DNA of 64,000 nt from Stictocephala bisonia (taxonomy: Eukaryota > Arthropoda > Insecta > Hemiptera > Membracidae), in NCBI GenBank assembly GCA_035578905.1, contig JAQJVL010001101.1:62001-126000 (forward strand). The letters are read 5' to 3'. Positions 2,084-22,613 of this stretch are shown here, one piece after another (positions within the stretch are counted from its first letter, which is position 1; each line of letters starts with the position of its first letter). A program made the position numbers and the translations under genes. Under the pieces are notes generated by a model. The model searched no databases and had not been told where the DNA came from. It saw nothing but the letters and a program-made list of their open reading frames with translations.

Positions 2084-2089
2084 CCAGTC
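2084..2089. repeat. 6-bp target site duplication, left
   Basis: CCAGTC directly abuts the first base of the inverted terminal repeat and is repeated exactly at 22608-22613 next to the last base of the opposite terminus. Six-base duplications are the rule for Polinton/Maverick integration. Confidence 0.85.
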
Positions 2090-2149
2090 AGTAGTGTAAT
2101 TTGCCGGTGCTGGCTCACATAAATCAAATGGTTTGACAGGTGAGTTTTG

Positions 2150-2179
2150 TGACGTCACGGTGACGTCACAATGACGTCA
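2150..2179. promoter_or_regulatory. Cluster of three CRE (TGACGTCA) sites, left end
   Basis: Full palindromic TGACGTCA octamers lie at 2150-2157, 2161-2168 and 2172-2179, followed by a half-site (TGACGT) and an inverted half-site. The same cluster is mirrored at 22518-22547. TGACGTCA is the consensus for CREB/ATF bZIP factors. Single copies also occur in the internal promoters at 18152-18159 and 19445-19452. Confidence 0.6.
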
Positions 2180-2219
2180 TGGTGACGTAGGTTAGTACGT
2201 CACAGGGATAATTTGTGGG

Positions 2220-2228
2220 TCAAGGTCA
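2220..2228 (+). promoter_or_regulatory. TCAAGGTCA site, left end
   Basis: Exact extended nuclear-receptor half-site, the consensus of the FTZ-F1/ERR type. It lies 14 bp outside the 50-bp hairpin; the same spacing is kept at the right end (22469-22477). Confidence 0.5.
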
Positions 2229-2242
2229 TTTGTGTGTTTTTT

Positions 2243-2292
2243 GAAAAAGGCTTCTTGGACAGAACGACTGTTCTGTCCAAGAAGCCTTTTTC
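2243..2292. terminator. Perfect 50-bp palindromic hairpin, left end
   Basis: A 23-bp perfect stem built on GGCTTCTTGGACAGAAC closes a 4-nt loop (GACT). On the minus strand it lies just past the gene ending at 2351 and past an AATAAA-type signal, so as RNA it would form at the 3' end of that transcript. As DNA it could extrude as a cruciform. The right-end copy is at 22405-22454, and a slightly imperfect third copy is at 20989-21038. Confidence 0.7.
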
Positions 2293-2350
2293 TTTTACTT
2301 TATTTAAAATATTACAAATTTTTACAATATGTACATCTTACAGACTAAAC

Positions 2351-2806
2351 CTACAGTAACAAACTACTTAGTGCTGGCTCAGGATCTGGGTGATGTGTTC
2401 TCCTTGTCTGAGTCGTCTTTGAGTACATCGGCCCGAAGTCCGCTGTAGAGCTTGCAACTTCTTCACTCCCCATCATCTGCCTCAGTACTGCATTGTACAA
2501 CTCCTCCCCACACTCGTCAGCTCCGATGCGGTCTAGTAACCTAAGGAAGTCGTCTTCGCGATGTAACACATCGCTACAAATGCAATAAATAGGCCCGAAA
2601 GTTGCCTCAGGGTTCGACCACATGCAGTGAGTGAAATGTTGACCGTACTTTGTAACTTTGGATTCAGTACAATTCATTCGAAACTTAGTACTCTCAATAC
2701 TCTGCGCTATTGCACCCATAGCGTTCAACTTTTCCAGCGCCTCAGAACTCCAAGAAGATTTTGCCAACCTGACGTTAAGCAACACCAGCTCCATATTTGT
2801 GTTCAT
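2351..2806 (-). CDS. Terminal-repeat small protein, left copy, C-terminus frameshifted
   Basis: This is the 151-residue left copy of a small protein whose right copy (21890-22318) is 142 residues. I do not recognise the family. It starts MNTNMELVLLNVRLAKSS, has an amphipathic N-terminal half, then a Cys/His-containing core (HFTHCMWSNPE followed by IYCICSDVL) and a conserved acidic tract (RIGADECGEELYNAVLR). Near 2435 one base is missing relative to the right copy, so the normal acidic tail ending in SPRS is replaced by an unrelated Thr/His/Pro-rich one. A TATA-like TATATAAG region lies about 60 bp upstream on the minus strand (2866-2873). Expression is possible; the altered tail suggests relaxed constraint in this copy. 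Confidence 0.55.
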   Translation of the reverse strand: MNTNMELVLLNVRLAKSSWSSEALEKLNAMGAIAQSIESTKFRMNCTESKVTKYGQHFTHCMWSNPEATFGPIYCICSDVLHREDDFLRLLDRIGADECGEELYNAVLRQMMGSEEVASSTADFGPMYSKTTQTRRTHHPDPEPALSSLLL

Positions 2807-2999
2807 ATTGAATGTGATTGCTTCGACTGCTGGCGTGCAAGTGATGTTAGAAAGCAGCGAACTGTAATATATAAGAGGAAATTCATGGTGGGGGTAACAT
2901 CATGTGGTGGGGGTTGCATGAATCCTCCTAGCGTGGTAAATTTCGTCTAAAGTCTAAAATCCCCGTCATATAGACTATAAATGCTTCAACATCAGTCTT

Positions 3000-3735
3000 A
3001 ACGCGGGATTTCGATCCAACTTAATTTAAAACCTTCATTTTTACACTACTCACAAACAGAAATCTACGAGTAAATACAGAGCTAAAGTGTGAAACGTAAT
3101 GTAAGAGGTAAAACCTAAAAAGTTCACCAAGTTTTTTCCTAACGATGTTACCGAACCACTTTAATACACCTACTGTTATAGAACGATGGTTAAAATATAG
3201 CAATATGATAGTGCTAAACAAATACTACAACTTTTAACTTAACACGGGTTTTTGATTCAACTTGTTCTTAAACCCTCACTTTTACACTACTCACAAACAA
3301 CAATTTTAAATAGAAGCCTAAAGAGTGATACGTAATGTAAGAAAACAAAAGGCAAAATCCTAAATAATCACGACATTTTTCCCGAACGGTGTTGTAGAAA
3401 CCCTTTATTACACCTACTGTTATAGAACGATGGTTAAAATATAGCAATATAATAGTGCTAAACAAATACTACAACTTTTATCTTAACACGGGTTTTTGAT
3501 TATACTTGTTCTTAAACCCTCATTTTTACACTACTCACAAACAACAATTTTAAATAGAAGCCTAAAGAGTGATAGGTAATGTAAGAAAACAAAAGGCAAA
3601 AACCTAAATAATCACAACAATTTTCCCGAACGGTGTTGTAGAAACCCTTTATTACACCTACTGTTATAGAACTATGGTTAGATATAGGAAAAATGATAGT
3701 ACTAAACCAATACGACAACTTTAAGCTGAGCATAG
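3000..3735. repeat. Three tandem units of about 245 bp
   Basis: Each unit contains the same short minus-strand open frame (starting at 3221, 3465 and 3733) with recurring strings FNHRSITVGV and FLFVSSVK, plus CACTACTCACAAACA. Unit starts are 247 and 244 bp apart. The right end keeps two units (about 21210-21690). The open frames are shared because the unit is repeated, and I do not call them genes. Confidence 0.75.
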
Positions 3736-3811
3736 GAGCACAATCTTATTCAAAGATAAAGTTTGCAGAGTGTAAACAATACGAGCCATCCTTAACCGAT
3801 GTCTGGACATC

Positions 3812-4159
3812 TTGACCGGACATTCAACTCAGGTGGGAGCCTCGCGCGTTCACACGCTCCCCACTCCTACAAGCCTGTACACAGGGACAGCAAACATCAC
3901 ATCTTCAAGCTCCGTTGCCGGAGCAGGTCATCGGTGCTACGCAGCTCCAGCCACCCCAGCCTCCGCAGATAGCTCTAGCAAGCCTCCGACCTCTTCAAGC
4001 AGCTCGGCCAAGGACAGCAGCCTACTGCAGTCCGCTCCCGGGATAGCAGCCAATCCAGAGTTGGCTCAAACATCTATCTCCTATTACCGTTCCTTAAGTC
4101 ATTTGTTTACGGACACCAAACCGGCTCAAATGGCTTATCCTTGCTTACTGTCGTTCTGA
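3812..4159 (+). CDS. Hypothetical Ser/Ala/Pro-rich open frame in the GC-rich cassette
   Basis: This 115-residue open frame is unusually GC-rich for the region and dominated by Ser, Ala, Pro and Thr. Its last 40 residues (PELAQTSISYYRSLSHLFTDTKPAQ) recur in the open frame at 6360-6569, which belongs to a paralogous cassette with a clear CCAAT/TATA promoter. The protein is low-complexity with no domain. In the mirrored position (13980-14275) the sequence is conserved on the minus strand but the frame is not clearly kept, and the segment runs straight into the constant-loop hairpins. A structured or spliced non-coding transcript explains it as well as a protein does. Confidence 0.3.
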   Translation: MTGHSTQVGASRVHTLPTPTSLYTGTANITSSSSVAGAGHRCYAAPATPASADSSSKPPTSSSSSAKDSSLLQSAPGIAANPELAQTSISYYRSLSHLFTDTKPAQMAYPCLLSF

Positions 4160-4310
4160 GGTCTCCAAACCACCCGGCAGTAGGCACCCCGGCTCAAACA
4201 TCTATCTCCTATTACCGTTCCTTAAGTCATTTGTTTACGGACACCAAACCGGCTCAAATGGCTTATCCTTGCTTACTGTCGTTCTGAGGTCTCCAAACCA
4301 CCCGGCAGTA
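4146..4310 (+). ncRNA. Two constant-loop hairpins (H1, H2)
   Basis: H1 (4146-4182) and H2 (4274-4310) each have stem TACTGTC/GGCAGTA (one G-U pair) around a 23-nt loop that starts GTTCTGAGG and ends CAAACCACCC. They sit in a directly duplicated segment (about 4070-4190 and 4190-4317). The loop is shared with H3-H5 (6643-6895) although the stems differ completely. I infer RNA structure; no transcript evidence is available. Confidence 0.5.
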
Positions 4311-4336
4311 GGCACCCCTGTCATTATTTATGTGTA

Positions 4337-4366
4337 TTTACTAATGAAACATGTGTTCTCTTTCAG
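4337..4366 (+). promoter_or_regulatory. Candidate 3' splice site
   Basis: TTTACTAAT resembles a branch point. It is followed by a pyrimidine tract and TTCTCTTTCAG. Almost the same string closes the hairpin cassette at 6908-6938 and occurs in each unit of the 452-bp array. This suggests that transcripts of the element are spliced. Confidence 0.4.
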
Positions 4367-4500
4367 AACTCTTCCCCTCTTCCTTTTACTGTTATGTAGT
4401 GCATGCTTAATCTTGCTTCCTGTACTGTTAGTTATCTAGTGCATGCTTGATTTATCTTGCTTTAGTAGCTAGTGCATAAAGCTAATTTTATATTACTACA

Positions 4501-4651
<151 letters not shown>

Positions 4652-5250
4652 TAACCCCAATGGCCAAAGGCTTTTTTTTTTTTTTTTTTTTTTTTTTAAC
4701 TTTTAAAAAATTGATGTTTGTGAGTAGTGTAAAATGACGGAACTGGAGCAAGTCGGTTCAAAATCCAGTTTTAGGATAAAAGTTGCTGTATTGGTTACTA
4801 GAACCATTTTGTTAGACTTAAACGTAGTTCTATCATAGTAGATGTATTAAAGGGGTTTTAGGAATCGTGAGTAGCGGAACTTTGCGGTATTGCAGTAGGT
4901 CTGACCAAAATCTCGTATTTGTTAATTAGGATCATTTTGTCACATTTTAACATAGTTCTATCAAAGTAGGTATATTAAGGGAAATCTTCAACAACATTAA
5001 ACTCGATTTTTTTTTAATTTTATTATGTCCTTGACCTACTTTCGAAAGTGAATTATAGCTAAAACATGTACCTTCTTTTTATAAGATTTTACGAGACCTC
5101 CTCTCTTACGAATTGTAGATATTCTCAGCTCTGGATCCGCATCACAGTCTTTAACCCAACCCACCAAAGTGATCTCTTAGAACAACAATGATTCCTTCAA
5201 CGATACAAGTCTGTATTTATGTAAGACCTACACCTTCCCGATTGGGGAAA

Positions 5251-5378
5251 ACTCAACAACCAATCACAGCAAAGCCACGCCCCCCACTGAATAGAGAAAA
5301 CTAGGATCGCAGCCTGCAGGAATCATTCGCTTACCAGCATCTACCATAGCACCAGCATCTACCACACCATCTTCTACT
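5251..5378 (+). promoter_or_regulatory. Upstream region of the proline-rich zinc-motif gene
   Basis: It contains a CCAAT box (5260-5264) and a GC-box-like CCACGCCCCCCACTG (about 5275-5289), about 100-120 bp before the ATG. There is no strong TATA; GAATAGAG near 5287 is a poor candidate. The right arm conserves the block in inverse orientation (13200-13250). A closely similar CCAAT plus CCCCCCACT block precedes the TATA promoter at 6308-6350. Confidence 0.45.
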
Positions 5379-6203
5379 ATGGACCCCAGCGTGAGGAAGC
5401 CAACCCTGCCACTACGTCTGGGAAGCCGTCCGCAGAGGTCTATCCTGAAGCAGGCCCTAGAGGCGGCCGACATAGACTTAGAAAAGCTGGGAAAATCCCG
5501 CAAGCAGCTTTTCCCTACTAAAATCTGTCTGCCTCAACCGAGACTTTTTCCTGCCTCCGTCGCTACAATACCACTGCCTTCGCCTTCGACTACTGCCCGC
5601 CCTCTACCAACCGCTGCATCTCTTACAATACCACTACCTTCGCCTTTGAGTACTGCCCACCCTCTACCAGCCGCTGCATCTCCCACTATACCACTGCTTT
5701 CGCCTTCGACTACTGCCCGCCCTCTACCAGCTACTGCATCTCTTTTTTCTCCGCTGTCTCTTCTGTCTCCGCTACCTCCCACTCCGCATTTGAGGAAACT
5801 GAAAGCCTTCAGAGAGTGCCAGAAGGCGTGCAGAGCTCCAAGACCTCCTTGCACGCACCTGTTCCTGCGCGGGGGTAAGAAAGGTGAGAGATGTGGAAAG
5901 CCAAGCGCTCTTGGAGGAGTATTGTGTGCGAGACACAAGCCGAAGCGAACGGCTCCTGCAGCAACGGCAACTCCCTTCAAGCGGCTGCGAATAAACCGGC
6001 TTAAATCCGGGAAACGCTATTTCTATGTTCAGCGTATTTCAGATCGCGAAGTAGCCTTGGAATGTAGTGGTAAACGCTACAAACTGAAGTTACCTCGTGG
6101 ACTGATAAACCCTGAACATCTAAATAAGCGACACTATATTATTCGCAACAGCTTGGGGACATCAGAGTGGAGACTTGCTCCCTCTAACACCCTACTTCCT
6201 TAA
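5379..6203 (+). CDS. Proline-rich protein with C-C-C-H zinc-like motif, left copy
   Basis: The protein has 274 residues. Residues 1-60 are basic (MDPSVRKPTLPLRLG). Residues 60-150 are Pro/Ser/Thr-rich degenerate repeats of the type PSTTARPLPAAAS. Residues 150-200 hold a Cys/His motif (C-x13-C-x10-C-x2-H, with GGKKGERCGKP and LCARHKPKR). The last 75 residues form a compact basic domain (KRYFYVQRISDREVALE, then RGLINPEHLNKRHYIIR). Short GxxxGxxC...CxxH motifs like this are common in proteins of large DNA viruses; that link is from memory and only suggestive. The inverted copy (12292-13125) keeps the full frame despite substitutions and in-frame indels, which argues that both were or are functional. 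Nuclear or nucleic-acid binding is plausible from the charge, but the function is unknown. Confidence 0.7.
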   Translation: MDPSVRKPTLPLRLGSRPQRSILKQALEAADIDLEKLGKSRKQLFPTKICLPQPRLFPASVATIPLPSPSTTARPLPTAASLTIPLPSPLSTAHPLPAAASPTIPLLSPSTTARPLPATASLFSPLSLLSPLPPTPHLRKLKAFRECQKACRAPRPPCTHLFLRGGKKGERCGKPSALGGVLCARHKPKRTAPAATATPFKRLRINRLKSGKRYFYVQRISDREVALECSGKRYKLKLPRGLINPEHLNKRHYIIRNSLGTSEWRLAPSNTLLP

Positions 6204-6226
6204 GCCTTCTTTCCATTCTATCAAAC

Positions 6227-6263
6227 GGTCCTTTTCAGGACCCAAACGGCCCTTTTCAGGGCC
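6227..6263 (+). terminator. Tandem GGTCC/GGCCC hairpins after the zinc-motif gene
   Basis: Two 5-bp hairpins lie 24 bp past the stop: GGTCC-TTTTCA-GGACC (6227-6242) and GGCCC-TTTTCA-GGGCC (6248-6263). The loop is constant and the middle base pair changes from T-A to C-G on both sides. The right arm has three such hairpins (12210-12267). TGACCTTGA follows at 6284-6292. Confidence 0.55.
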
Positions 6264-6283
6264 TAACATTTTTAACTGATTAA

Positions 6284-6292
6284 TGACCTTGA
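6284..6292 (-). promoter_or_regulatory. TGACCTTGA site after the zinc-motif gene
   Basis: Exact inverted copy of TCAAGGTCA, 20 bp past the terminal hairpins. Mirrored at 12181-12189. Confidence 0.5.
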
Positions 6293-6307
6293 CCTACTTA
6301 CAAACAA

Positions 6308-6350
6308 CCAATCAGAAGAGACCCCCCACTCTCGCGAGCTCTATATATAC
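6308..6350 (+). promoter_or_regulatory. CCAAT/TATA promoter of the hairpin cassette, left arm
   Basis: CCAAT at 6308-6312, a C-rich block CCCCCCACT, a palindromic TCGCGA/GAGCTC stretch, then CTATATATA (6341-6349). Transcription would be expected to start near 6370, just before the hairpin cassette. Conserved inverted at 11890-11932. Confidence 0.65.
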
Positions 6351-6359
6351 GCGCACACC

Positions 6360-6569
6360 TTGAAGACGGAATCATTTCTTCAAGCTCCACTGCCAGATCA
6401 ACATCTCCTAGATCAGCGCCTCTTCAAGCAGCCCACTCCAGAACCTCTGCCTGCCCGCCTGCCCACAGCTTGCTTCAGGATAGCAGCCAATCCAGAGTTG
6501 ATTCAGACATCTCTCTCCTATCACCTTTCCTTAAGTTATTTGTGTACGGACACCAAACCGGCTCAATGA
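6360..6569 (+). CDS. Hypothetical short open frame at the start of the hairpin cassette
   Basis: A 69-residue frame begins about 15 bp past the TATA box (MKTESFLQAPLPDQHLL) and ends NPELIQTSLSYHLSLSYLCTDTKPAQ, matching the tail of the frame at 3812-4159. It is rich in Leu and Pro with no recognisable domain. In the right arm the equivalent frame (11698-11880, minus) keeps the N-terminus but differs in the middle. It may be a real small protein or just the 5' part of a structured RNA. The start is very close to the expected cap site, which weighs against translation from this ATG. Confidence 0.3.
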   Translation: MKTESFLQAPLPDQHLLDQRLFKQPTPEPLPARLPTACFRIAANPELIQTSLSYHLSLSYLCTDTKPAQ

Positions 6570-6642
6570 CTTTTTCCTTAAGTTATTTGTTTACGGACAC
6601 CAAACCGGCTCAAATGGCTTATCCTTGCTTACTGTCTATCCT

Positions 6643-6895
6643 CAACAGATTGTTGTTCTGAGGCCCGAAAACCACCCAACAGTCTGTTGAAAAACCATCT
6701 TATGTTTGAGTCTTCTCGAGAATACCGCTGGGGGTCGTGAGCACCGCTTCACCCTTCCTCAATCTTACCTTCCAAAACCCAATCCCTGCACTTTGCTGTT
6801 CTAAGGCCCGCAAACCATCCAACAAAGTGCATCCAACCTACTGTCTTTCCGGCAGAGTGTTGTTCTGAGGCCTGCAAACCACCCAACACTCTGTC
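6643..6895 (+). ncRNA. Three constant-loop hairpins with different stems (H3-H5)
   Basis: H3 (6643-6689) has stem CAACAGATTGTT/AACAGTCTGTTG. H4 (6787-6831) has stem TGCACTTTGCT/AACAAAGTGCA. H5 (6851-6895) has stem GGCAGAGTGTT/AACACTCTGTC. Each encloses a 23-nt loop of the same type (starts GTTCT, contains AAGGCC or GAGGCC, ends CAAACCAYCC). Stem sequences are unrelated between hairpins yet each is self-complementary, apart from one mismatch in H4. They lie downstream of the promoter at 6308-6350 and upstream of two splice-acceptor-like sites. Confidence 0.6.
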
Positions 6896-6907
6896 ATAAT
6901 AGTGTAT

Positions 6908-6986
6908 TAATATACTAATCAGTTGTTTTCTCTTTCAGCTTCTTCTTGGGTATTAATATACTAATTTGTTATGTCTTCTTTTTCAG
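6908..6986 (+). promoter_or_regulatory. Two successive candidate 3' splice sites
   Basis: TATACTAAT, a pyrimidine tract and TTCTCTTTCAG end at 6938. A second TATACTAAT with CTTCTTTTTCAG ends at 6986. Branch-point and acceptor spacing is normal for animal introns, and the pair could give alternative acceptors. I could not identify the donor with confidence. Confidence 0.45.
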
Positions 6987-7023
6987 CGCCTTACATTATT
7001 CTTTACTCTTAACTTATATATAG

Positions 7024-7329
7024 TTAGTGCATGCTTGCTTTAGTAGATATATTGCATGTTTTGGTGTAGCATCTGAGTAGTCTGGATATATTGCATGTTT
7101 TTGGTTTAGCATCTAAGTAGTCTGGTGGAGCACACATACAAACAGCACTCCTTTTTTTATTTTTTTTATAAACATCTACATGTATATGATTATTCATATA
7201 CAAACACTGATGCTTAAGATTCAATAGTACCCAATTGTGCGGTTGAGGATCTAAGGCATCAGAACATATTTTACAACACTTGAAGATTGTAAAAGCTAAC
7301 GGAAGGCTTGTTGTATTGTTATTCAGCAT
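7024..7329 (-). CDS. Hypothetical Cys-containing open frame, inner end of left arm
   Basis: A 101-residue minus-strand frame with CCKICSDALDPQPHNW and a Lys-rich stretch before CMCAPPDYLDAKPK; the PDYLDAKPKTCN segment is partly duplicated at the C-terminus. Two further copies of most of this sequence exist (7425-7630 minus; 10897-11219 plus), both with a frame change near KPSVSFYN. I do not recognise the family. One intact and two broken copies fit a decaying small gene, but a fortuitous frame cannot be excluded. Confidence 0.3.
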   Translation of the reverse strand: MLNNNTTSLPLAFTIFKCCKICSDALDPQPHNWVLLNLKHQCLYMNNHIHVDVYKKNKKRSAVCMCAPPDYLDAKPKTCNISRLLRCYTKTCNISTKASMH

Positions 7330-7690
7330 CGGTTTATTACCCGTGCTGGAGAATAATATTTCGGCTAACCGTTATCTCTTACCACCTTCATAAAACAACC
7401 TTACATTATAATTTTTTTCTTTTTGGTGGAGCACACATACAAACAGCACACCTTTTTTTATTTTTTTATAATCATCTACATGTATATGATTATTCATATA
7501 CAAAACACTGATGCTTAAGATTCAATAGTACCCAATTGTGCGGTTGAGGATCTAAGGCATCAGAACATATTTACAACACTTGAAGATTGTAAAAGCTAAC
7601 GGAAGGCTTGTTATGCAGCATTGGTTTATTGCCCGTGCTGGATAATAATATTTTGGCTAACCGTTATCTCTTACTACCTTCATAAAACAA
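7128..7690. repeat. Direct duplication of about 300 bp in left arm
   Basis: The segment from GGTGGAGCACACATAC through CCGTTATCTCTTAC occurs at about 7128-7390 and again at 7425-7690, nearly identical. The right arm has one copy (10857-11110, inverted), so the duplication is specific to the left arm. Confidence 0.75.
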
Positions 7691-7735
7691 CCTTACATTA
7701 TATATATATATTTTTTTTTTTTTATAAGATTTGGA

Positions 7736-7744
7736 TGACCTTGA
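7736..7744 (-). promoter_or_regulatory. TGACCTTGA site, inner end of left arm
   Basis: Exact inverted TCAAGGTCA; the mirrored copy is at 10801-10809. It marks the boundary between the arms and the unique centre. Confidence 0.45.
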
Positions 7745-7932
7745 CCTACATTTTGGACTTGTAATTTCACGTTACTTGCTGCTCTTTGTGTTAAACAAGC
7801 TGTTGAATCTTTATCTAGTTTGTCTATATGTACACTAAAAAATAAAAGAACTTAAACCCTCCTCATATGTATATTCTATATAAAGCGGTAAAAATCTTAG
7901 ATTTAGTAATTTTTAACTACCTGTTAGTTTCA

Positions 7933-8166
7933 ATGGTTGCTACCATCGTTATTATTCGTGTAATGAATGTATACGAGGATAGGAAGCCTCTCTTAGAAGA
8001 CTTGTGGGTGCTGAAAGCAAAATACCCTACAATATAAGTAGAGTACGATGGCGACGGTAATGAATGCCATCGATTCACTCAGCGCTTTCACGAAGTGTAT
8101 ATGAAAAACCCTTGGGTAAACGATAGTTGTAAAAAGGTGTTTGTTCAAGTAATTATAAACTCTTAA
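7933..8166 (+). pseudogene. Broken member of the 90-residue small-protein family
   Basis: The frame starts at 7933 (MVATIVIIRVMNVYEDRK), meets an in-frame TAA at 8035-8037 after AKYPTI, and continues in the same frame (VEYDGDGNECHRF) to a stop at 8164-8166. It aligns loosely with the intact gene at 18273-18545 (shared pattern LAKY, VEY, EC and a hydrophobic C-terminal strand). Both are followed by a C or T run and the string TTAGGAAAA-GTTGTCAAA, which supports a common origin. The similarity is weak enough that confirmation by alignment is needed. Confidence 0.45.
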
Positions 8167-8263
8167 CCCCCCCCCCTTAGGAAAACGTTGTCAAATTACA
8201 ATCATAGCTATCAAACTTATAACACAATGTTATTGCTTAACAATATGTTTAGTAACCTAGATG

Positions 8264-8403
8264 TCTGATTGGTTGGTCTGCATATATAAGAACAGGCTTC
8301 TGATTGGTTGGTTTGCGTATGTAAGAACAGGCTTCTGATTGGTTGGTTTGCGTATGTAAGAACAGGCTTCTGATTGGTTGGTTTGCGTATATAAGAACTT
8401 GCA
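8264..8403 (+). promoter_or_regulatory. Promoter made of four 35-bp CCAAT/TATA tandem repeats
   Basis: Four copies starting at 8264, 8299, 8334 and 8369 each carry TCTGATTGGTTGG (an inverted CCAAT box) and a TATA-type string. Copies 1 and 4 have TATATAAGAAC, copies 2 and 3 have TATGTAAGAAC. The last TATA (8388-8395) lies about 60 bp before the ATG of the polymerase-linked gene. TATATAAGAAC is also the TATA core of the gene at 18273. Confidence 0.65.
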
Positions 8404-8455
8404 AGTGGTGCTAACAATCATTTCTGCTCCAGACATAGTCGAATAAACAAGTGCA

Positions 8456-9313
8456 ATGCATGTTTGCGGTGTTTGTCGTGAGCAATTTGAGGATGAAATT
8501 TTGCTATTGTGTCATCATGAGCTGTTTCACAAGAATGAAGAGGAAGAGCATCCTCCAGCTAGAGCAAGCATTATTATGTATGCTCCACCACGAGACCTGA
8601 AAGTAGAGATTTTGGCAGAAGCTTTACAAAGATCTGCGGTAAGACATTTTAAAATAAAGAACTCTAAAAGTTACAATTTGGAAGAATTCTTATCCAAAAC
8701 AAAAATGTTGATCATAGATACATTAGCAACAGAATTTCGAAGATTAAACTTTGTTAAATTTGGGTTGATTCTAGACGCTATATTTACTAATACCACAAAT
8801 GAAGTATCGCCAAGAGGATTTATTACTAAAAATCAAACCATTATAGCAACAACAAACCTGGAAGATGTTGTGGATGACTTGTGTCAAGAACTAAAAACCA
8901 AACTTATTGAACATGAGGGAAGAGGATCTGGCTGGAGTTTATTGCATATAGATGGCTTGGATATAAGAGTGCACAAACACGGGTATGGTGATAGAGGTAG
9001 TAGCTACATAGAGCTTCCAGAAAAGATTTCTAACACTAAAGCATGCATAAATGTATAAAATGAGGATAATGAATGCTTTAGGTATGCAATGTTGGTTAAG
9101 TTTATAGAAGATAAAAACATTTGTAGACCTAACGCTAAATACAATCAATTAAGAAAAAAGTACAACTTTAACGGTATGACGTATCCTGTTTCTTTATCAG
9201 ATGTTAAGAGGTTTCAAAAACAAAATCCTGCAACATCTGTAAATGTTTTTGGCTTAGATAATTCAAATAATGTATACCCTCTCCAATTAGCACAATTTGA
9301 AAGTTTCTCATAA
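8456..9313 (+). pseudogene. N-terminal part of a polymerase-B-associated zinc-finger protein
   Basis: There are 286 codons in one frame, interrupted by one TAA at 9056-9058. Residues 3-24 form a canonical C2H2 zinc finger (C-x2-C-x12-H-x4-H). Residues 50-185 match, from memory, the conserved region seen before virus-type family B DNA polymerases in insect and other animal genomes: GSGWSLLHIDGLDIRVHK, then RGSSYIELP, then INV-NEDNECF where the stop replaces the expected Lys (AAA to TAA). The tail (MTYPVSLSDVKRFQKQN, SVNVFGLDN, VYPLQL) completes that domain. The frame then stops at 9311-9313, and the polymerase exonuclease and palm regions are absent. A strong upstream promoter (8264-8403) remains. 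The product would be a truncated 200-residue protein unless the stop is read through. Confidence 0.75.
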
Positions 9314-14914: not shown

Positions 14915-15435
14915 ACTAGCTGTACCCGCCCGCTTCGCCGGTCATAATATTGAGTATGGTTTAGAACCTAATAGCTGAAAGAATTCGAGCATTTTTGCTT
15001 CTTCTACCAATATTAGATTTTTAGGAGGCATGTCATAAAAAGTAAACTGCAAAACAAATAATTATTTATTTGTTATTTTCACGTTTCACCACATGTTTTA
15101 ATTACCGAGGAAAAAAGGTTAACACCAAATACACATCACCTGATCAAGGTGAAATGTAGAACTACAATAAATCAAAACATATACAGTACTGTTGTTGTGA
15201 GAACTTCAATCTGCTTATGGCACGTGAAACTACATTAAATCACCCAGTCATATGTTTTTTTGTAAACAATTTAGATTCTCCATTTGAATAACATGGGATT
15301 TTTAGGAGCCCGTGGGGTGGGCCCCTGTGGACGGATCTGCATCAAACTTCACAGAAACCATCTCGGGAGTATACAAGACAACATCCTAAAGTTTCATGGC
15401 GATCGGTTGGATGGTTTGGCAGCGCATAAACTTCA

Positions 15436-15519
<84 letters not shown>

Positions 15520-15541
15520 AACATCCTCTTTTATAAATATA
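14915..15541 (+). mobile_element. Host interspersed repeat inserted in the element (copy A)
   Basis: It begins CTAGCTGTACCCGCCCGC and ends in a TA microsatellite (15439-15517) plus ACATCCTCTTTTATAAATAT. A close second copy lies at 48036-48650 in a different context, so this is a mobile host repeat. A short coding-like patch (CIKLHRNHLGSIQDNILKFH) is common to both copies. I cannot name the family with confidence. Confidence 0.7.
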
Positions 15542-15588
15542 AATTATAATCATTTGTAGTACAGATGTTTTATAATTTTGACAACGAT

Positions 15589-17650
15589 TTTCCGCTTCGT
15601 TTAAATTACCTTGAACTTTATCTTTTTACTTTATAATTCATCACAATTAATAAGTTTTATAAGTAAAAGGATCTAGCGTTGGATGATGTGTCATGGGTTT
15701 CAAGGTCAAGAGGAGTGTTTTTAAAAAAACCTTCTTGCACAGAACAAGTTCTTTCAAATTGTTCTGTACAAGAAGGTTTTTTTCTTTTTATTTTTATTAA
15801 TTTTTATTTACAAATGTACAACTTTAGTCTTCACCGCTACTATCACCAAAACACTTTTGCGACGCTTGCTTGTATTTATGTCTTTTAGAAACTTCAAGAA
15901 AATGGAAGTATTACAAAAGAGTTTAATTCGTATTATTAAAAATTTATATTCACCCTATTCCACATATTATTTTGTACTAATCATATATGTTTTCTCTTTC
16001 AGGACAAAATGTTTTCTTCTTCCTGTTCTGTTTTTTACGATTTCCGCTTCGTTAAAAAGACCTTGAACTTTATCTTTTTACTTTATAATTCATCACAATT
16101 AATAAGTTTTATAAGTAAAAGGATCTAGCGTTGGATGATGTGTCATGGGTTTCAAGGTCAAGAGGAGTGTTTTTAAAAAAACCTTCTTGCACAGAACAAG
16201 TTCTTTCAAATTGTTCTGTACAAGAAGGTTTTTTTCTTTTTATTTTTATTAATTTTTATTTACAAATGTACAACTTTAGTCTTCACCGCTACTATCACCA
16301 AAACACTTTTGCGACGCTTGCTTGTATTTATGTCTTTTAGAAACTTCAAGAAAATGGAAGTATTACAAAAGAGTTTAATTCGTATTATTAAAAATTTATA
16401 TTCACCCTATTCCACATATTATTTTGTACTAATCATATATGTTTTCTCTTTCAGGACAAAATGTTTTCTTCTTCCTGTTCTGTTTTTTACGATTTCCGCT
16501 TCGTTAAAAAGACCTTGAACTTTATCTTTTTACTTTATAATTCATCACAATTAATAAGTTTTATAAGTAAAAGGATCTAGCGTTGGATGATGTGTCATGG
16601 GTTTCAAGGTCAAGAGGAGTGTTTTTAAAAAAACCTTCTTGCACAGAACAAGTTCTTTCAAATTGTTCTGTACAAGAAGGTTTTTTTCTTTTTATTTTTA
16701 TTAATTTTTATTTACAAATGTACAACTTTAGTCTTCACCGCTACTATCACCAAAACACTTTTGCGACGCTTGCTTGTATTTATGTCTTTTAGAAACTTCA
16801 AGAAAATGGAAGTATTACAAAAGAGTTTAATTCGTATTATTAAAAATTTATATTCACCCTATTCCACATATTATTTTGTACTAATCATATATGTTTTCTC
16901 TTTCAGGACAAAATGTTTTCTTCTTCCTGTTCTGTTTTTTACGATTTCCGCTTCGTTAAAAAGACCTTGAACTTTATCTTTTTACTTTATAATTCATCAC
17001 AATTAATAAGTTTTATAAGTAAAAGGATCTAGCGTTGGATGATGTGTCATGGGTTTCAAGGTCAAGAGGAGTGTTTTTAAAAAAACCTTCTTGCACAGAA
17101 CACGTTCTTTCAAATTGTTCTGTACAAGAAGGTTTTTTTCTTTTTATTTTTATTAATTTTTATTTACAAATGTACAACTTTAGTCTTCACCGCTACTATC
17201 ACCAAAAACACTTTTGCGACGCTTGCTTGTATTTATGTCTTTTAGAAACTTCAAGAAAATGGAAGTATTACAAAAGAGTTTAATTCGTATTATTAAAAAT
17301 TTATATTCACCCTATTCCACATATTATTTTGTACTAATCATATATGTTTTCTCTTTCAGGACAAAATGTTTTCTTCTTCCTGTTCTGTTTTTTACGATTT
17401 CCGCTTCGTTAAAAAGACGTTGAACTTTATCTTTTCACTTTATAATTTATCGCAATTAATAAGTTTTTATAGTAAAAAGGATCTAAGGATCTAGCGTTGG
17501 ATGATGCGTCATGGGTTTCAAGGTCAAGAGGAGTGTTTTTAAAAAAACCTTCTTGCACAGAACAAGTTCTTTCAAATTGTTCTGTACAAGAAGGTTTTTT
17601 TTTTTTTTTTTTATTATTTTTTATTAATTTTATTTACAAATGTACAACTT
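15589..17650. repeat. 452-bp tandem array, about 4.5 units
   Basis: Near-identical units start at 15589, 16041, 16493, 16945 and 17398 (the last partial). Each carries TCAAGGTCA, a hairpin with stem AACCTTCTTG-ACAGAACAA, a minus-strand AATAAA region, the final codons of the acidic gene (17650-18039), a GACGCTTGCTTG segment and a splice-acceptor-like CTCTTTCAG. A related single copy of the second half is at 14633-14860. Two 69-residue frames per unit repeat exactly because the DNA does; they have no recognisable domain. Confidence 0.85.
17541..17603 (-). terminator. Hairpin at the 3' end of the acidic gene
   Basis: AACCTTCTTGCACAGAACAA pairs with its near-complement around a loop GTTCTTTCAAA. 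On the minus strand it follows the stop at 17650 and several AATAAA-like strings, and TCAAGGTCA lies just beyond (17518-17526). The stem shares CTTCTTG-ACAGAAC with the terminal 50-bp hairpins. Confidence 0.6.
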
Positions 17651-18039
17651 TAGTCTTCACCGCTACTATCTTCGCTGCTATCCTCAAATAACCTCTTCCT
17701 AACGTACAACAGCCTCCTGCAGCAGTTTGATCGACCCCTTTCAATATCGTTGACATTGAGGGAGGTTGTCGGTGTTGGCAGTGATGATGGACTGGGTGAT
17801 CCAAAGCTGCACGAGGTTGTTGTTGAAATTGGAGTCCCAATGTTCCACGACGTTTCCATGACAGGTGTTGTCGCCTGGCTGTTTGAGGTGGTGGAGGGTA
17901 GACTATCATCATCATCTGAAACGTTGTTGTTGATTTCAGCGATGAAATCCATAGGGACGTCGTCCTCGTCTACTTCACTGTTGATGATATGAGGAATATT
18001 TACCCCTTTGTTGCAAAACACATTGTCGGTGGGAGCCAT
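17650..18039 (-). CDS. Acidic Ser/Thr/Pro-rich small protein
   Basis: The protein has 129 residues from the ATG at 18039 (MAPTDNVFCNKGVNIPH). Residues 20-50 are strongly acidic (EVDEDDVP, SDDDDS), the middle is Ser/Thr/Pro-rich with no fold signature, and the C-terminus has an Arg-rich stretch (RRLLYVRKRLF) followed by an acidic tail (EDSSEDSSGED). The composition resembles small transcriptional or regulatory proteins of DNA viruses, but I recognise no family. It is divergent from the gene at 18273 across a shared 233-bp promoter. Its 3' end is the source of the 452-bp tandem array. A fragment of its 5' end and promoter is duplicated at 19290-19455. Confidence 0.6.
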   Translation of the reverse strand: MAPTDNVFCNKGVNIPHIINSEVDEDDVPMDFIAEINNNVSDDDDSLPSTTSNSQATTPVMETSWNIGTPISTTTSCSFGSPSPSSLPTPTTSLNVNDIERGRSNCCRRLLYVRKRLFEDSSEDSSGED

Positions 18040-18272
18040 CTCAACGATATGAACTGTTTTACAAACTGCAACTCCTTAAGTAACGCAACAGTAAATGGAA
18101 GGGGAAATACTGAATTCTGTGATTGGTTAGTTAAGATACATTACTTGATTGTGACGTCACCTACAAGAGCGGTTAGTTACTACCCCCACCTGGTCAGTTA
18201 CTACCCCCACTTAAACAATTGTCAGTACTATATAAGAACGTTGCTGTGTCCGGATTAGCATTATTGGGGGAT
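18040..18272. promoter_or_regulatory. Bidirectional promoter between two small genes
   Basis: It contains an inverted CCAAT box (GATTGG, 18121-18126), a CRE (TGACGTCA, 18152-18159), a tandem GTTACTACCCCCACCT-like pair (about 18173-18210) and TATATAAGAAC (18229-18239) about 44 bp before the plus-strand ATG. The left half including CCAAT and CRE is repeated at 19310-19452. Confidence 0.6.
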
Positions 18273-18545
18273 ATGGCTTCTACGCATGTGCCTGCTGCGC
18301 TTATAATCCTTAGAAGAAAAGCTAGCTCGAGGGAGGAGCTGGTAAAATGTAATAGAGAGTTTGCAGAGCTATTGGCCAAGTATACAGAAGTGTATGCTAT
18401 GGTCGAGTATTCATGTACCACCGTACATGGTGTAGAGTGCCGTTATAGCAGCAAATTGACTAAAACATTGCTCCCCTTGTGGTCTATATCGTACACTAGA
18501 GGGTTTGACTTTCTAGCTGACATAACAATTTATGTAAAACCTTAA
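18273..18545 (+). CDS. 90-residue small protein, intact copy
   Basis: The protein has 90 residues (MASTHVPAALIILRRKASS...). The first ATG after the TATATAAG box is used; an in-frame extension to 18219 would cross the TATA box and is rejected. It has a helical N-terminal half (REELVKCNREFAELLAKY), a central VEYSCTTVHGVECRY and a hydrophobic C-terminal strand (LADITIYVKP). Family unknown. A degraded tandem copy follows at 18880-19129, and a more distant broken relative is at 7933-8166. A hairpin (18627-18676) and TGACCTTGA (18696-18704) follow, as with other genes of the element. Confidence 0.6.
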   Translation: MASTHVPAALIILRRKASSREELVKCNREFAELLAKYTEVYAMVEYSCTTVHGVECRYSSKLTKTLLPLWSISYTRGFDFLADITIYVKP

Positions 18546-18568
18546 ATTGTTTTGCCCCTCCCTCCACC

Positions 18569-18571
<3 letters not shown>

Positions 18572-18618
<47 letters not shown>
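18572..18618. repeat. Poly-T run, about 47 bp
   Basis: A pure T tract directly after the small gene; the related loci have a short C run (8167-8177) or T run (19142-19151) at the same place. Confidence 0.9.
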
Positions 18619-18620
<2 letters not shown>

Positions 18621-18626
18621 GAAAAT

Positions 18627-18676
18627 GTTGTCAAAATATAATCATTTGTAGTACAGATGTTTTATATTTTGACAAC
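18627..18676 (+). terminator. Hairpin after the 90-residue gene
   Basis: GTTGTCAAAATATAA pairs with TTATATTTTGACAAC around a 20-nt loop that includes GTAGTACAGATG. Copies follow the dead paralogue (19160-19209), and a similar fold precedes the 452-bp array (15540-15586). TGACCTTGA follows at 18696-18704. Confidence 0.6.
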
Positions 18677-18695
18677 GATTTCCGCTTCGTTTAAA

Positions 18696-18704
18696 TGACC
18701 TTGA
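18696..18704 (-). promoter_or_regulatory. TGACCTTGA site after the 90-residue gene
   Basis: Exact inverted TCAAGGTCA, 20 bp past the hairpin; the same order of parts as at the zinc-motif genes and the terminal genes. Confidence 0.5.
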
Positions 18705-18879
18705 ACTTTATCTTTTTTACTTTATAATTCATCGCTATTAATAAGTTTTATAAGTAAAAGGATCTAAGGATCTAGCGATGGATGATGTGTCAAGCGCGGT
18801 TAGTTACTACCACCACTTACACAATTGTCCGTACTACATAAGAACGTTGCTGTGTCCGGATTAGCATTATTGGGGAGAT

Positions 18880-19129
18880 ATGGCTTATAATGCTTAGAAG
18901 AAAAAGCTAGCTCCAGGGAGGAGCTGGTTAAATGTAATAGAGAGTTTACAAGCTATTGACCAAGTATACAGAAGTGTATGCTATGGTCGAGTATTCATGT
19001 ACCACCGTAAATGTTGTAGAGTGTCGTTATAGCAGCAAATTGACTAAAACATTGCTCCCCTTGTGGTCTATATCGTACACTAGAGGGTTTGACTTTCTAG
19101 CTGACATAACAATTTATGTAAAACCTTAA
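18880..19129 (+). pseudogene. Degraded tandem copy of the 90-residue gene
   Basis: The ATG is followed after five codons by a stop, because a stretch present in the intact copy (after ATGGCTT) is missing here. Further single-base indels occur, e.g. in the AGAAGAAAAAGCTAG region. The last 100 bp and the hairpin downstream are nearly unchanged. The TATA core has also decayed (TACATAAGAAC). Confidence 0.75.
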
Positions 19130-19289
19130 ATTGTTTGTTCCCTTTTTTTTTAGGAAAATGTTGTCAAAATATAATCATTTGTAGTACAGATGTTATATAT
19201 TTTGACAACGATTTCCTCTTAGTTTAAATAACCTTGAACTTTATAATTCATCGCAATTAATAAGTTTTATAAGTAAAAGGATCTAGCGA

Positions 19290-19455
19290 TGGATGATGTG
19301 TGTGATATGGGGGAATATTTTTTCCCTTTGTTGCAAAACACATTGTCGGTGGGAGCCATCTCAACTCCTTAAGTAACGCAACAGTAAATGGAAGGGGAAA
19401 TACTGAATTCTGTGATTGGTTAGTTAAGATACATTACTTGATTGTGACGTCATCA
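19290..19455. repeat. Duplicated promoter fragment of the acidic gene
   Basis: It repeats the first codons of the acidic gene (minus strand, GGAGCCATCTCAAC) and its promoter with CCAAT and CRE (19445-19452), ending abruptly after TGACGTCATCAG. Confidence 0.65.
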
Positions 19456-20100
19456 GAAATTCTGCCTCGTATTATGATTTTAAATTATAAGGCTTTTTTA
19501 AATTTATTACGGTTTTTAACAAAATATTTACACATTTCAAAAATATATAAGCTTGGAAGTGTTAGAATTTTACCAGAAATAAAAAAGGTCTGCAATGAGA
19601 TCTGAATGGTTGCCTGAATAATATCCTTATTGCTTTCTTTTGAATTTAAAAAATTCAGCCAAAACTATCTGCTCCCATGCTGCACCAAACGAGTAATCCA
19701 TAGCCAATTAAACTTTGAAAATTTGAAAAAATATACGGTTTTCATAACATTATCAGAAACGCTTCTATTACTCGGGTCTTTTACATAGCTTACTCATACA
19801 TAGGAGGACGTAAGCTTGAGTAAGCACACTTTTTAATATTACTATAGCTTCGTCACCTCTAGTTTCGTTATTAATCAACCGATTTCGTTCAAATTTAATA
19901 CATATGCACTATCTAACCATAGTACAATATTTTATAAATAAAATCTCAGGACTTATCTGTCCCCCCCCCCCACTTACCATTTTACCGAGCGATATCGTTC
20001 AAGTTTGGCGAACATATACTCATGCACTATCTATAACAAATATATTATATGCAACGTATCAGGACCCCCTCCCCCCCCTCTCCTAAACTTTTCATGTATA
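19456..20100. other. Repeat-derived region without a gene
   Basis: 19456-19760 is AT-rich with nothing recognised. 19770-20070 is a copy of the dispersed repeat at 14405-14640 (TAGCTTACTCATACATAGG, TTTCGTTCAAATTT), with short C runs at 19960 and 20070. Confidence 0.5.
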
Positions 20101-20178
20101 AATGAAGGTGTTTAATCCAATTTCTTGTAGTATTATCTCAGTTTTCGCAAGAGAGCGTATTTCTTAACTTGAAAAACT

Positions 20179-20364
20179 ATGGATACCCAAGGTTTGGAAA
20201 ATGTTCAGCACCAAATTGTTAGTTCTACAACTAATAGTGTACGAGATACAAGAGATTTATGTGAGACTATCACGCCACAGGATTTGCCTATACAAGTAAT
20301 GGAGGTTGATAGCACAGTTAAAACTGATGCAGAGGCATTTATAGTCTTTTTGACAGGATTTTAG
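20179..20364 (+). CDS. Hypothetical 61-residue protein
   Basis: A short frame starting MDTQGLENVQHQIVSS, rich in Thr, Asp and Glu, with no known domain. Its 3' part (VKTDAEAFIVFLTGF) is recognisable again at 21690-21745 just upstream of the terminal gene, but the start there is missing. So a two-gene cassette (this frame plus the 142-residue gene) has been duplicated and one copy truncated. The TATA box of the next gene lies 40 bp past its stop. Confidence 0.4.
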   Translation: MDTQGLENVQHQIVSSTTNSVRDTRDLCETITPQDLPIQVMEVDSTVKTDAEAFIVFLTGF

Positions 20365-20398
20365 CATTTTTTATCATACACCACACCACATTTTTGTC

Positions 20399-20407
20399 TT
20401 ATATATT
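20399..20407 (+). promoter_or_regulatory. TATA element of the 142-residue gene
   Basis: TTATATATTG about 70 bp before the ATG; the terminal copy has TTATATATTA at 21832-21841 with a similar GTGCGTTGCT-type leader, followed by CATCACT-GCACRCC. Confidence 0.5.
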
Positions 20408-20471
20408 GAGGTGCGTTGCTGTTCCACATCACTCGCACACCAACACTTGCAAGCAGCACATCTGAGCAGCA

Positions 20472-20900
20472 ATGAATACAAATATTGAGTTGGTTGTGCT
20501 TGAGCTAAGATTTTCAAAGTCTTCTTGGACTCCTGCTGCGTTGGAGCTGTTGGATTGTATGGGAGAGATTGCTACGAGTATTGAAAGTACAAAATTCCGG
20601 ATGAAATGTATAGACACAGAGATTACACGCTATGGTCAACATTTCACTCACTGCATATGGTCGAACCCTGAGACGTCTTTCGGACCTATTTATTGCATTT
20701 GTAGCGATGTGTTATATTGTCAAGACGACTTCCTTACGTTACTAGACTGCATCGGAGCTGACGAGTGTGGGGACGAGTTGTATAATGCTGTACTGAGGCA
20801 GGTGATGGGGAGTGAAGAAGTTGCAAGCTCTACAGCGGACTTCAGGGTTGATGTACTCAAAGACGACTCAGACAAGGATAACACATCACCCAGATCCTGA
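20472..20900 (+). CDS. 142-residue small protein, internal paralogue
   Basis: Same family as the terminal-repeat genes: MNTNIELVVLELRFSKSS, then HFTHCIWSNPE, IYCICSDVL, CIGADECGDELYNAVLRQ and an acidic tail ending TSPRS. It differs from the right terminal copy at many residues in the first half and is nearly identical in the second half. That pattern suggests gene conversion of the 3' half. AATAAA lies at 20976-20981 and a 50-bp hairpin starts 8 nt later. A spaced Cys/His set (HxxHC...CxC) could bind metal. Function unknown; conservation of three copies argues it is real. Confidence 0.65.
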   Translation: MNTNIELVVLELRFSKSSWTPAALELLDCMGEIATSIESTKFRMKCIDTEITRYGQHFTHCIWSNPETSFGPIYCICSDVLYCQDDFLTLLDCIGADECGDELYNAVLRQVMGSEEVASSTADFRVDVLKDDSDKDNTSPRS

Positions 20901-20988
20901 GCCAGCACTAAGTAGTTTGTTACTATAGGTTTAGTCTGTAAGATGTACATATTGTAAAACATTTGTAATATTTTAAATAAAGTAAAAA

Positions 20989-21038
20989 GAAAAAGGCTTC
21001 TTGGACAGAGCAGTCGTTCTGTCCAAGAAGCCTTTTTC
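20989..21038 (+). terminator. 50-bp hairpin after the internal paralogue
   Basis: The same palindrome as at the element ends, with a single stem mismatch. It starts 8 nt past AATAAA (20976-20981). A relaxed TCAAGGCCA-type site follows (near 21045-21055, GGCCTTGACC). Confidence 0.65.
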
Positions 21039-21889
21039 AAAAACTATACCAATGGCCTTGACCCACAAAAATTATCCTGAGTTGAATGCTCGGTAAAGAT
21101 GTTCAGACTCGTATTGTTTTACACTCTGCAATAATACTAATTAATTAAGGATGGCTCGTATTGTTTATGCTCTGCAAACTTTATCTTTGAATAAGATTGT
21201 GCTTATATGTTCAGTTTAAAGTTGTCGTATTGGTTTAGTACTATCATTTTCCTATATTTAACCATAGTTCTATAACAGTAGGTGTAATAAAGGGTTTCTA
21301 CAACACCGTTAGGAAAAATGTTGTGATTATTTAGGTTTTTGCATTTTGTTTTCTTACATTACGTATCACTCTTTAGGCTTCTATTTTAAAATTGTTGTTT
21401 GTGAGTAGTGTAAAAATGAGGGGTTTAAGAACAAGTTTAATCAAAAACCCGTATTATGACAAAAGTTGTAGTATTTGTTTAGCAATATCATATTACTATA
21501 CTTTAACCATCGTTCTATAACAAGTAGGTGTATTAAAGGGTTCGGTAACATCGTTAGGAAAAAACTTGGTGAACTTTTTAGGTTTTACCTCTTACATTAC
21601 GTTTCACACTTTAGCTCTGTATTTACTCGTAGATTTCTGTTTGTGAGTAGTGTAAAATTGAAGGTTTTAAATTAAGTTGGATCGAAATCCCGCGTTAAGA
21701 CTGATGTTGAAGCATTTATAGTCTATAAGACGAGGATTTTAGACTTTAGACGAAATTTACCACGCTAGGAGGATTCATGCAACCCCCACCACATGATGTT
21801 ACCCCCACCATGAATTTCCTCTTATATATTACAGTTCGCTGCTTTCTAACATCACTTGCACGCCAGCAGTCGAAGCAATCACATTCAAT

Positions 21890-22318
21890 ATGAACACAAA
21901 TATGGAGCTGGTGTTGCTTAACGTCAGGTTGGCAAAATCTTCTTGGAGTTCTGAGGCGCTGGAAAAGTTGAACGCTATGGGTGCAATAGCGCAGAGTATT
22001 GAGCGTACTAAGATTCGAATGAATTGTACTGAATCCAAAGTTACAAAGTACGATCAACATTTCACTCACTGTATGTGGTCGAACCCTGAGACAACTTTCG
22101 GGCCTATTTATTGCATTTGTAGCGATGTGTTACATCGCGAAGACGACTTCCTTAGGTTACTAGACCGCATCGGAGCTGACGAGTGTGGGGAGGAGTTGTA
22201 TAATGCAGTACTGAGGCAGGTGATGGGAAGTGAAGAAGTTGCAAGCTCTACAGCGGACTTCGGGGTTGATGTACTCAAAGACGACTCAGACAAGGAGAAC
22301 ACATCACCCAGATCCTGA
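21890..22318 (+). CDS. 142-residue terminal-repeat protein, right copy (intact)
   Basis: Full-length version of the gene found broken at 2351-2806. The start is supported by the TATA at about 21832 and by the aligned start of the paralogue at 20472. Features are HFTHCMWSNPE, IYCICSDVLHREDDF, RIGADECGEELYNAVLRQ, and an acidic tail with DDSDKENTSPRS. The last part has phosphorylation-like Ser/Thr-Pro sites. The AATAAA signal (22393-22398) is 7 nt before a perfect 50-bp hairpin. Its place inside a terminal repeat means two copies per element, as for diploid genes in the ends of some large DNA viruses. Family not recognised. Confidence 0.65.
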   Translation: MNTNMELVLLNVRLAKSSWSSEALEKLNAMGAIAQSIERTKIRMNCTESKVTKYDQHFTHCMWSNPETTFGPIYCICSDVLHREDDFLRLLDRIGADECGEELYNAVLRQVMGSEEVASSTADFGVDVLKDDSDKENTSPRS

Positions 22319-22404
22319 GCCAGCACTAAGTAGTTTATTACTGTAGGTTTAGTCTGTAAGATGTACATATTGTAAAAATTTGTAATATTTTAAATAAAGT
22401 AAAA

Positions 22405-22454
22405 GAAAAAGGCTTCTTGGACAGAACAGTCGTTCTGTCCAAGAAGCCTTTTTC
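22405..22454 (+). terminator. Perfect 50-bp palindromic hairpin, right end
   Basis: A 23-bp stem with loop AGTC, the exact mirror of 2243-2292, located 7 nt past AATAAA. Confidence 0.7.
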
Positions 22455-22468
22455 AAAAAACACACAAA

Positions 22469-22477
22469 TGACCTTGA
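22469..22477 (-). promoter_or_regulatory. TGACCTTGA site, right end
   Basis: Exact inverted TCAAGGTCA, 14 bp past the hairpin; mirror of 2220-2228. Confidence 0.5.
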
Positions 22478-22517
22478 CCCACAAATTATCCCTGTGACGT
22501 ACTAACCTACGTCACCA

Positions 22518-22547
22518 TGACGTCATTGTGACGTCACCGTGACGTCA
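22518..22547. promoter_or_regulatory. Cluster of three CRE sites, right end
   Basis: TGACGTCA at 22518-22525, 22529-22536 and 22540-22547; mirror of 2150-2179. Confidence 0.6.
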
Positions 22548-22607
22548 CAAAACTCACCTGTCAAACCATTTGATTTATGTGAGCCAGCACCGGCAAATTA
22601 CACTACT

Positions 22608-22613
22608 CCAGTC
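22608..22613. repeat. 6-bp target site duplication, right
   Basis: CCAGTC, identical to 2084-2089. Confidence 0.85.

Follow-up and report, generated by a model that had tools for sequence, protein, structure and literature searches.

The closest described systems are the Polinton/Maverick elements of vertebrates. The part of PMC8097293 (Barreat and Katzourakis) that we draw on describes intact vertebrate elements, proposes a 'Proteoviridae' and argues for a constrained genome size, with lengths varying by about 10% around ~17 kb on average. The same part reports (AGT)2...(ACT)2 termini and 6-base-pair (bp) duplications, notes that AGT repeated at the ends suits a jumping-back start of protein-primed replication, and states that virions of animal Mavericks were not observed. 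Here we analyse a window, by which we mean the whole stretch of 64,000 nucleotides (nt) from contig JAQJVL010001101.1 (positions 62,001 to 126,000, forward strand) of the Stictocephala bisonia assembly GCA_035578905.1, and in it an element at 2090-22607 that has Polinton ends and few of the expected genes. We establish the parents, joint, termini and duplication of this copy. We propose that it is probably a non-autonomous Polinton that was inserted as one unit, is size-constrained and was mobilised in trans, and that it consists of a left part, A (2090-9303), from a gene-bearing Polinton and a right part, B (9303-22607), from a gene-poor family. The assembly searched comprises 1.683 Gb in 11,105 contigs, and C-numbers below are labels of contigs or copies within it. 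The element is laid out as follows.

2084-2089, unstranded: left target-site duplication CCAGTC, read directly
2090-3488, plus strand: left terminal inverted repeat, with AGTAGTG terminus, three TGACGTCA at 2150-2179 and a 23-bp hairpin at 2243-2292
2090-9303, plus strand: left part from a type A Polinton, polymerase side (alignment to C1151)
9303-9303, unstranded: A/B joint with one shared base, absent from the other candidates scored
9303-22607, plus strand: right part from a type B element (matches to C3430, C5048 and C880)
21208-22607, minus strand: right terminal inverted repeat, with a hairpin at 22405-22454 and three TGACGTCA at 22518-22547
22608-22613, unstranded: right target-site duplication CCAGTC, read directly

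Direct reading of the junctions gave CCAGTC followed by AGTAGTGTAATTTGCC from 2090 on the left and, as the mirror image of that end, GGCAAATTACACTACT to 22607 followed by CCAGTC on the right. The AGTAGTG inverted termini, the exact 6-bp CCAGTC duplication and the 20.5 kb length described in an earlier note made from the letters alone (the original prediction) were all found, the length being 20,518 bp. The terminal repeats that it put at 1.5-1.7 kb are present but shorter, at ~1.4 kb in the window copy (1,403 aligned columns, 96.9% identity, 37 mismatches, 7 gaps). They start with (AGT)2, the motif described in the cited part of PMC8097293, and the length fits the ~15-20 kb of Polintons/Mavericks, slightly exceeding the range given in the part of PMC4028283 used here. 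Ends and duplication thus bear out the Polinton/Maverick signature that the original prediction had recognised. The 24-nt terminus was found in exact form at 197 places in the assembly, 96 of them forward and 101 reverse, whereas its reversed-pattern control had 0 occurrences, so the recurrence of the terminus is beyond chance, and in a search with the first 345 nt all of the best 40 of 328 candidates match at 99-100%. All eight full-length copies checked first (the window copy, C5419, C1151, C3992, C3644, C3083, C99 and C1) have an exact 6-bp duplication, as do 15 of the 17 copies read at both ends when nine B copies are included; this duplication is what the original prediction proposed to check in other copies.

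The two parts of the element have different parents. Aligned to C1151 over 7,150 bases, the left part shows 30 mismatches (0.4%), plus 764 gap columns, 600 of which sit in one 500-bp bin. On the right, 17650-22607 differs from C5048 by 14 mismatches in 4,927 (0.3%), with 35 gap columns, and from C3430 by 29 mismatches in 4,920, whereas C3235 and C880 differ more; 9303-10760 is present in C3430 at 100% identity, and 14302-16296 and 17195-21717 were found in C880 at 95-96%. Each part thus diverges from its parent by 0.3-0.4% along the stretches compared, and the near-identity of the A and B copies indicates that they are probably recent. At the joint, A reads TTTGAAAG and then AACTG, B reads TTTTTAGC and then GTTTC, and one G is common to both. 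The window is alone in spanning the joint among the best 40 of 1,357 candidates, and the matches of other contigs to window 9303-10760 begin exactly at 9303: seven contigs match at 98-100% throughout, C292 does so in two pieces at 99-100%, and another cohort matches at 80-89%. The joint lies in PolB, upstream of the polymerase domain and 245 nt past the in-frame stop that ends the window frame at 200 codons. Large inverted internal arms, claimed in the original prediction, are present at ~4487-7712 and 10822-13935; one arm is the polymerase-side region as A has it and the other a diverged form of that region from B, 86-90% alike. The joint sets the two face to face, and so they are not an independent design. 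A copy-back palindrome from a single Polinton was dropped as an explanation, the inverted region being 86-90% like A, as against 97-99% for the left part, and belonging to the B family.

Gene-bearing copies with the same ends as the window element exist in the assembly. These helper-type copies with a PolB frame (type A) apparently represent an ordinary, complete Polinton. Among the best 150 of 2,399 candidates in a PolB-fragment search, 20 show an open frame of 1191 amino acids (aa), one of them (C154) with a stop flagged; the 1191-aa group includes C1151, C3992, C3644 and C1, that is, four of the seven other copies checked first. The frames of C3083 and C99 are shorter, and C5419 does not appear among those 150. 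The PolB frame of C1151 contains PF03175 (8e-23), past the portion kept by the window. In the capsid-side half of C3992, Pfam identified a double-jelly-roll major capsid protein (3e-119) and a PLA2-like protein (4e-14); the protein collection contains 2,725 relatives of the capsid protein. C3992 also has weak matches, both under the Pfam curated cut-offs, to a poxvirus-A32-like ATPase (4e-4) and an rve integrase (0.0015), and the type A integrase piece matches PHROGs transposases as well (5e-6). The same-ended relatives with polymerase, integrase, ATPase and capsid genes that the original prediction suggested looking for were therefore recovered, with ATPase and integrase at that sub-threshold level. 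At least two more Polinton groups are present in the assembly, at ~64-69% and 55-60% PolB-fragment identity, with many long open frames.

An alternative to insertion as one unit is that a resident A copy was broken near 9303 after its insertion and repaired from B out to the right end. We consider such conversion unlikely. It would keep the duplication intact, the terminal repeat common to A and B would provide homology on one side, and mosaicism occurs elsewhere: C5419 (L031, L032), a copy that shares the ends and has an exact duplication, is a mosaic Polinton whose six structural-side proteins are 95-100% like those of type A and whose PolB, integrase, ATPase and p345 are just 35-45% like them. 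Conversion would, however, require a one-sided repair tract of 13.3 kb, and the window remains nearest to one B copy (C5048, 1-2 mismatches per 500) to the very right end, with no return to A seen. The single-shared-base joint in the window and the exchanged ATPase-integrase-polymerase set in C5419 exemplify recombination modes of Polintons. Far less probable is an assembly artefact in which two distinct insertions were misjoined in the contig. Near-identical copies are numerous and many short contigs terminate inside elements, but a joint homology of one base leaves no overlap to mislead an assembler, a 6-bp flank common to two unrelated insertions has a probability of 1/4096, and the window copy's own perfect duplication argues against such a join. 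A whole element with its own perfect duplication was most simply inserted as one molecule, as the composite origin from A and B holds.

The genes and frames of the window copy are the following.

5379-6203, plus strand: 274-aa basic Pro/Ser/Thr-rich protein, A version (frame list)
8456-9058, plus strand: N-terminal 200 codons of PolB, with in-frame stop; no polymerase domain remains past the joint at 9303
12292-13290, minus strand: 332-aa B version of the 274-aa protein (frame list and comparison with the 274-aa protein)
17650-18039, minus strand: 129-aa acidic frame, B-specific (type A match sought, none found)
18273-18545, plus strand: 90-aa frame, B-specific (type A match sought, none found)
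20472-20900, plus strand: 142-aa protein, paralogue of the terminal-repeat protein (frame comparison)
21890-22318, plus strand: 142-aa terminal-repeat protein; its left-end version is at 2351-2806, minus strand, 151 aa

The truncated polymerase-linked gene of the original prediction proved to be the N-terminal part of a Polinton PolB. No match was found in the window element to the PolB-domain piece of an A copy, the polymerase domain expected of an autonomous Polinton, to the A integrase piece, which stands for the expected RVE integrase, or to the A double-jelly-roll capsid protein and packaging ATPase; a comparison of window 9304-22607 with ten proteins from the A capsid side and two pieces of PolB gave no match. 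The 274-aa protein has no relative in Pfam, PHROGs or the protein collection, and the 142-aa protein has one relative in the protein collection (78%) and no related locus in IMG/VR. A structure prediction of the 142-aa protein alone had a mean predicted local distance difference test score (pLDDT) of 37.9 and was not used.

Type B is a non-autonomous Polinton family with shared termini, very long inverted repeats and few small genes. It is multi-copy: the 17650-18560 marker occurs in both orientations on at least 11 contigs among the best 40 of 236 candidates, so that the 'non-autonomous satellite-like relative' of the original prediction is a fitting description of most of the element. In C880, a type B copy, the arms are 5,608 nt each, with 5 mismatches and 19 gaps between them. 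Ends were sought in ten B copies and both were read in nine, of which seven have exact 6-bp duplications, one matches at 5/6 positions and one is mismatched; copies read at both ends are 19.9-21.1 kb long. The ends of C716 lie outside the fetched stretches, and the terminus listing puts them 23,481 bp apart. The ten type A capsid-side proteins and two PolB pieces have no match in the B pieces read, except that C880 and C3430 retain a relic of one A protein, 24-25 residues long (74 bp at 97% in C880); B is thus gene-poor, with a piece of A inside. For the 129-aa frame, the ratio of non-synonymous to synonymous substitution (dN/dS) is 0.15-0.36 in five of nine copies compared and ~0.6 in two whose frames are short and align poorly, and the last two lack an intact frame. 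For the 90-aa frame the ratio was 0.14, 0.29, 0.29, 0.38 and 1.46 in five copies and undefined in two, the frame being absent in two more, and values of 0.30 and 0.41 were obtained between the 142-aa paralogues and between the 274-aa and 332-aa versions, respectively. Drawn from few counts in related copies, these values are suggestive only of selection on the small B genes. The second option of the original prediction, that the element may be an 'undescribed virus-like lineage', is not supported in the sense of a lineage with a gene set of its own: the odd gene content comes from the union, at 9303, of an ordinary Polinton with a gene-poor family. A long-standing independent lineage with its own replication strategy is the least probable explanation of all: B does have small genes of its own and low dN/dS in part of the 129-aa comparisons, but the ratios are less clear elsewhere, no replication, integration or capsid gene was found in B, its ends are nearly identical to those of A, and it contains the relic of an A capsid-side gene.

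Lengths are similar across both types. Mean length is 20,462 bp (standard deviation (SD) 415) for the seven B copies that have exact duplications and 21,172 bp (SD 701) for the seven other copies checked first, which include the mosaic C5419. Pairing of the first 100 of the 197 termini yielded 33 pairs and 34 unpaired ends, several of which sit at the end of a contig; the 33 pairs span 17,919-44,742 bp, with a median of 21,053 and an interquartile range of 20,791-21,522, and no short elements are listed among these 100 termini. Two older B copies are also near the common length (C4767, 20,505 bp; C2017, 21,348 bp). In B and the hybrid, genes are lost and A's length is kept, and this case adds to the earlier size argument.

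These results allow us to propose how the composite element arose. The joint would have formed in an extrachromosomal, replicating molecule, via a template switch or end joining. The type A polymerase, primed at the common AGTAGT termini, may then have copied B and the hybrid in trans, and the type A integrase would have inserted both in trans with 6-bp duplications; an RVE integrase makes the target-site duplication. The total would have been held near 20-21 kb, other lengths presumably not being passed on, and the simplest cause of such a limit would be that A capsids package a fixed length. On this reading, B and the hybrid would be packaged into A capsids. More tentatively, and with somewhat less than even confidence, we suggest that B is a true Polinton satellite, made up of ends, few selected genes and filler, which A replicates and integrates and whose travel in A capsids keeps its length. 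If so, the size of B and the hybrid would be a genomic footprint of packaging, and hence of virions.

Several points weigh against the proposal of a size-constrained element mobilised in trans. Mobilisation and packaging are readings of genome sequence, and B-driven conversion of an inserted A copy would equally preserve the duplication. Three older B-bearing contigs are longer (C1351, 44.7 kb; C2810, 35.5 kb; C3416, 30.3 kb), although the excess length of these 30-45 kb copies reads as putative later insertions. The 97 termini beyond the first 100 were covered in part; a split of the termini by flanking base listed 52 with the base A. In a toy model, a random joint has a ~3-5% chance of landing near 20.8 kb, so that one hybrid is weak evidence for a size constraint, and the centres of the young B copies agree at 98-100%, so that common descent rather than selection may account for their equal length.

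The RNA hairpins noted in the original prediction are present in the window element, together with other repeats.

4144-6893, plus strand: hairpin motif GUUCURAGG-N5-AAACCAYCC, with stems changing and re-paired, at 4144, 4272, 6646, 6789 and 6853
6227-6264, plus strand: two histone-3'-end-like stem-loops past the 274-aa gene, below the Rfam gathering score
11293-11540, minus strand: B copies of the GUUCURAGG-N5-AAACCAYCC motif, at 11293, 11357 and 11500
12210-12272, minus strand: three 21-bp units of the histone-3'-end-like stem-loop past the 332-aa gene, below the Rfam gathering score
15584-17670, plus strand: 452-bp tandem array of 4.6 units, one hairpin per unit
TCAAGGTCA sites in the element: 2220, 6284, 7736, 10801, 12181, 15700, 16152, 16604, 17056, 17518, 18696 and 22469

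The 41-nt hairpin motif occurs in both A and B with a constant loop and a varying stem. Among 11 of 14 distinct examples, both bases vary in 6 of 11 pairs; the other three, with shifted registers, were excluded and form 6, 4 and 3 of 9 stem pairs as cut. A covariation score of 0.349 was obtained, whereas shuffles give 0.093 and 0 of 500 of them reach the observed value; the rows are related repeats, and the shuffles take no account of their kinship. The histone-3'-end-like stem-loops score 25.5-27.2 bits against an Rfam gathering score of 34, and their position behind the 274/332-aa gene might link expression to S phase. Rfam gave 0 matches in the window at gathering scores, and weak miRNA, rli56, ctRNA and similar matches were dismissed as generic hairpins. 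Long hairpins lie just past the 3' ends of small genes (2243-2292, 20989-21038, 22405-22454 and in each 452-bp unit), the 23-bp hairpin having a folding energy of -40.3 kcal/mol. The window has 13 occurrences of TCAAGGTCA (0.44 expected), which we take to be a nuclear-receptor/ERR-type site; 12 of them lie within the element and five in one tandem array. All eight TGACGTCA in the window (0.54 expected) lie within the element, at 2150-2179, 18152, 19445 and 22518-22547; we assume this to be a CRE/ATF site. The stretch 14900-15520 in the B part, also present in C880, ends in (AT)n and presumably resembles a retroelement 3' end. Outside the element, the window contains reverse-transcriptase fragments of non-long-terminal-repeat (non-LTR) retroelements (23033-24254, 43556-46160) and long minisatellite arrays in the host flank (31126-32024, 60485-61213, 61342-62152, 62845-64000).

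Miniature inverted-repeat transposable elements (MITEs) and other non-autonomous DNA transposons rely on the enzymes of a same-ended autonomous relative, as B would, but these are usually small, according to the part of PMC10294476 used here, and B is as long as its helper. Where a MITE is short, gene-free and of high copy number, the window element is 20.5 kb long with several small frames. In the comparison with virophages, the type A capsid protein was unmatched in the window element, virophage capsid models not being searched separately. No printed description of non-autonomous Polintons was found in the literature searched, as far as the parts available extend. Repbase may hold entries for such elements. 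Protein-primed DNA viruses, adenovirus among them, have defective and satellite genomes of helper size, with filler DNA, duplicated ends and microhomology joints; B and the hybrid resemble these genomes, the difference being that here the genomes are host-integrated and known from sequence alone. Type A shares with Polintoviruses, as the part of PMC4028283 has them, the set of pPolB, integrase-like, ATPase-like and double-jelly-roll capsid genes, none of which is intact in B or the hybrid. Termini, 6-bp duplications and a narrow length range are like those of the vertebrate Polinton/Maverick elements in the part of PMC8097293 cited above; the differences are that the core genes are missing from B and the window copy, at unchanged length, and that the mean is ~21 kb as against ~17 kb. 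Intact Polintons have constrained sizes, yet their own genes could hold that length; the B family and the hybrid, which keep the length without those genes, uncouple genome size from gene content and allow the packaging idea to be tested.

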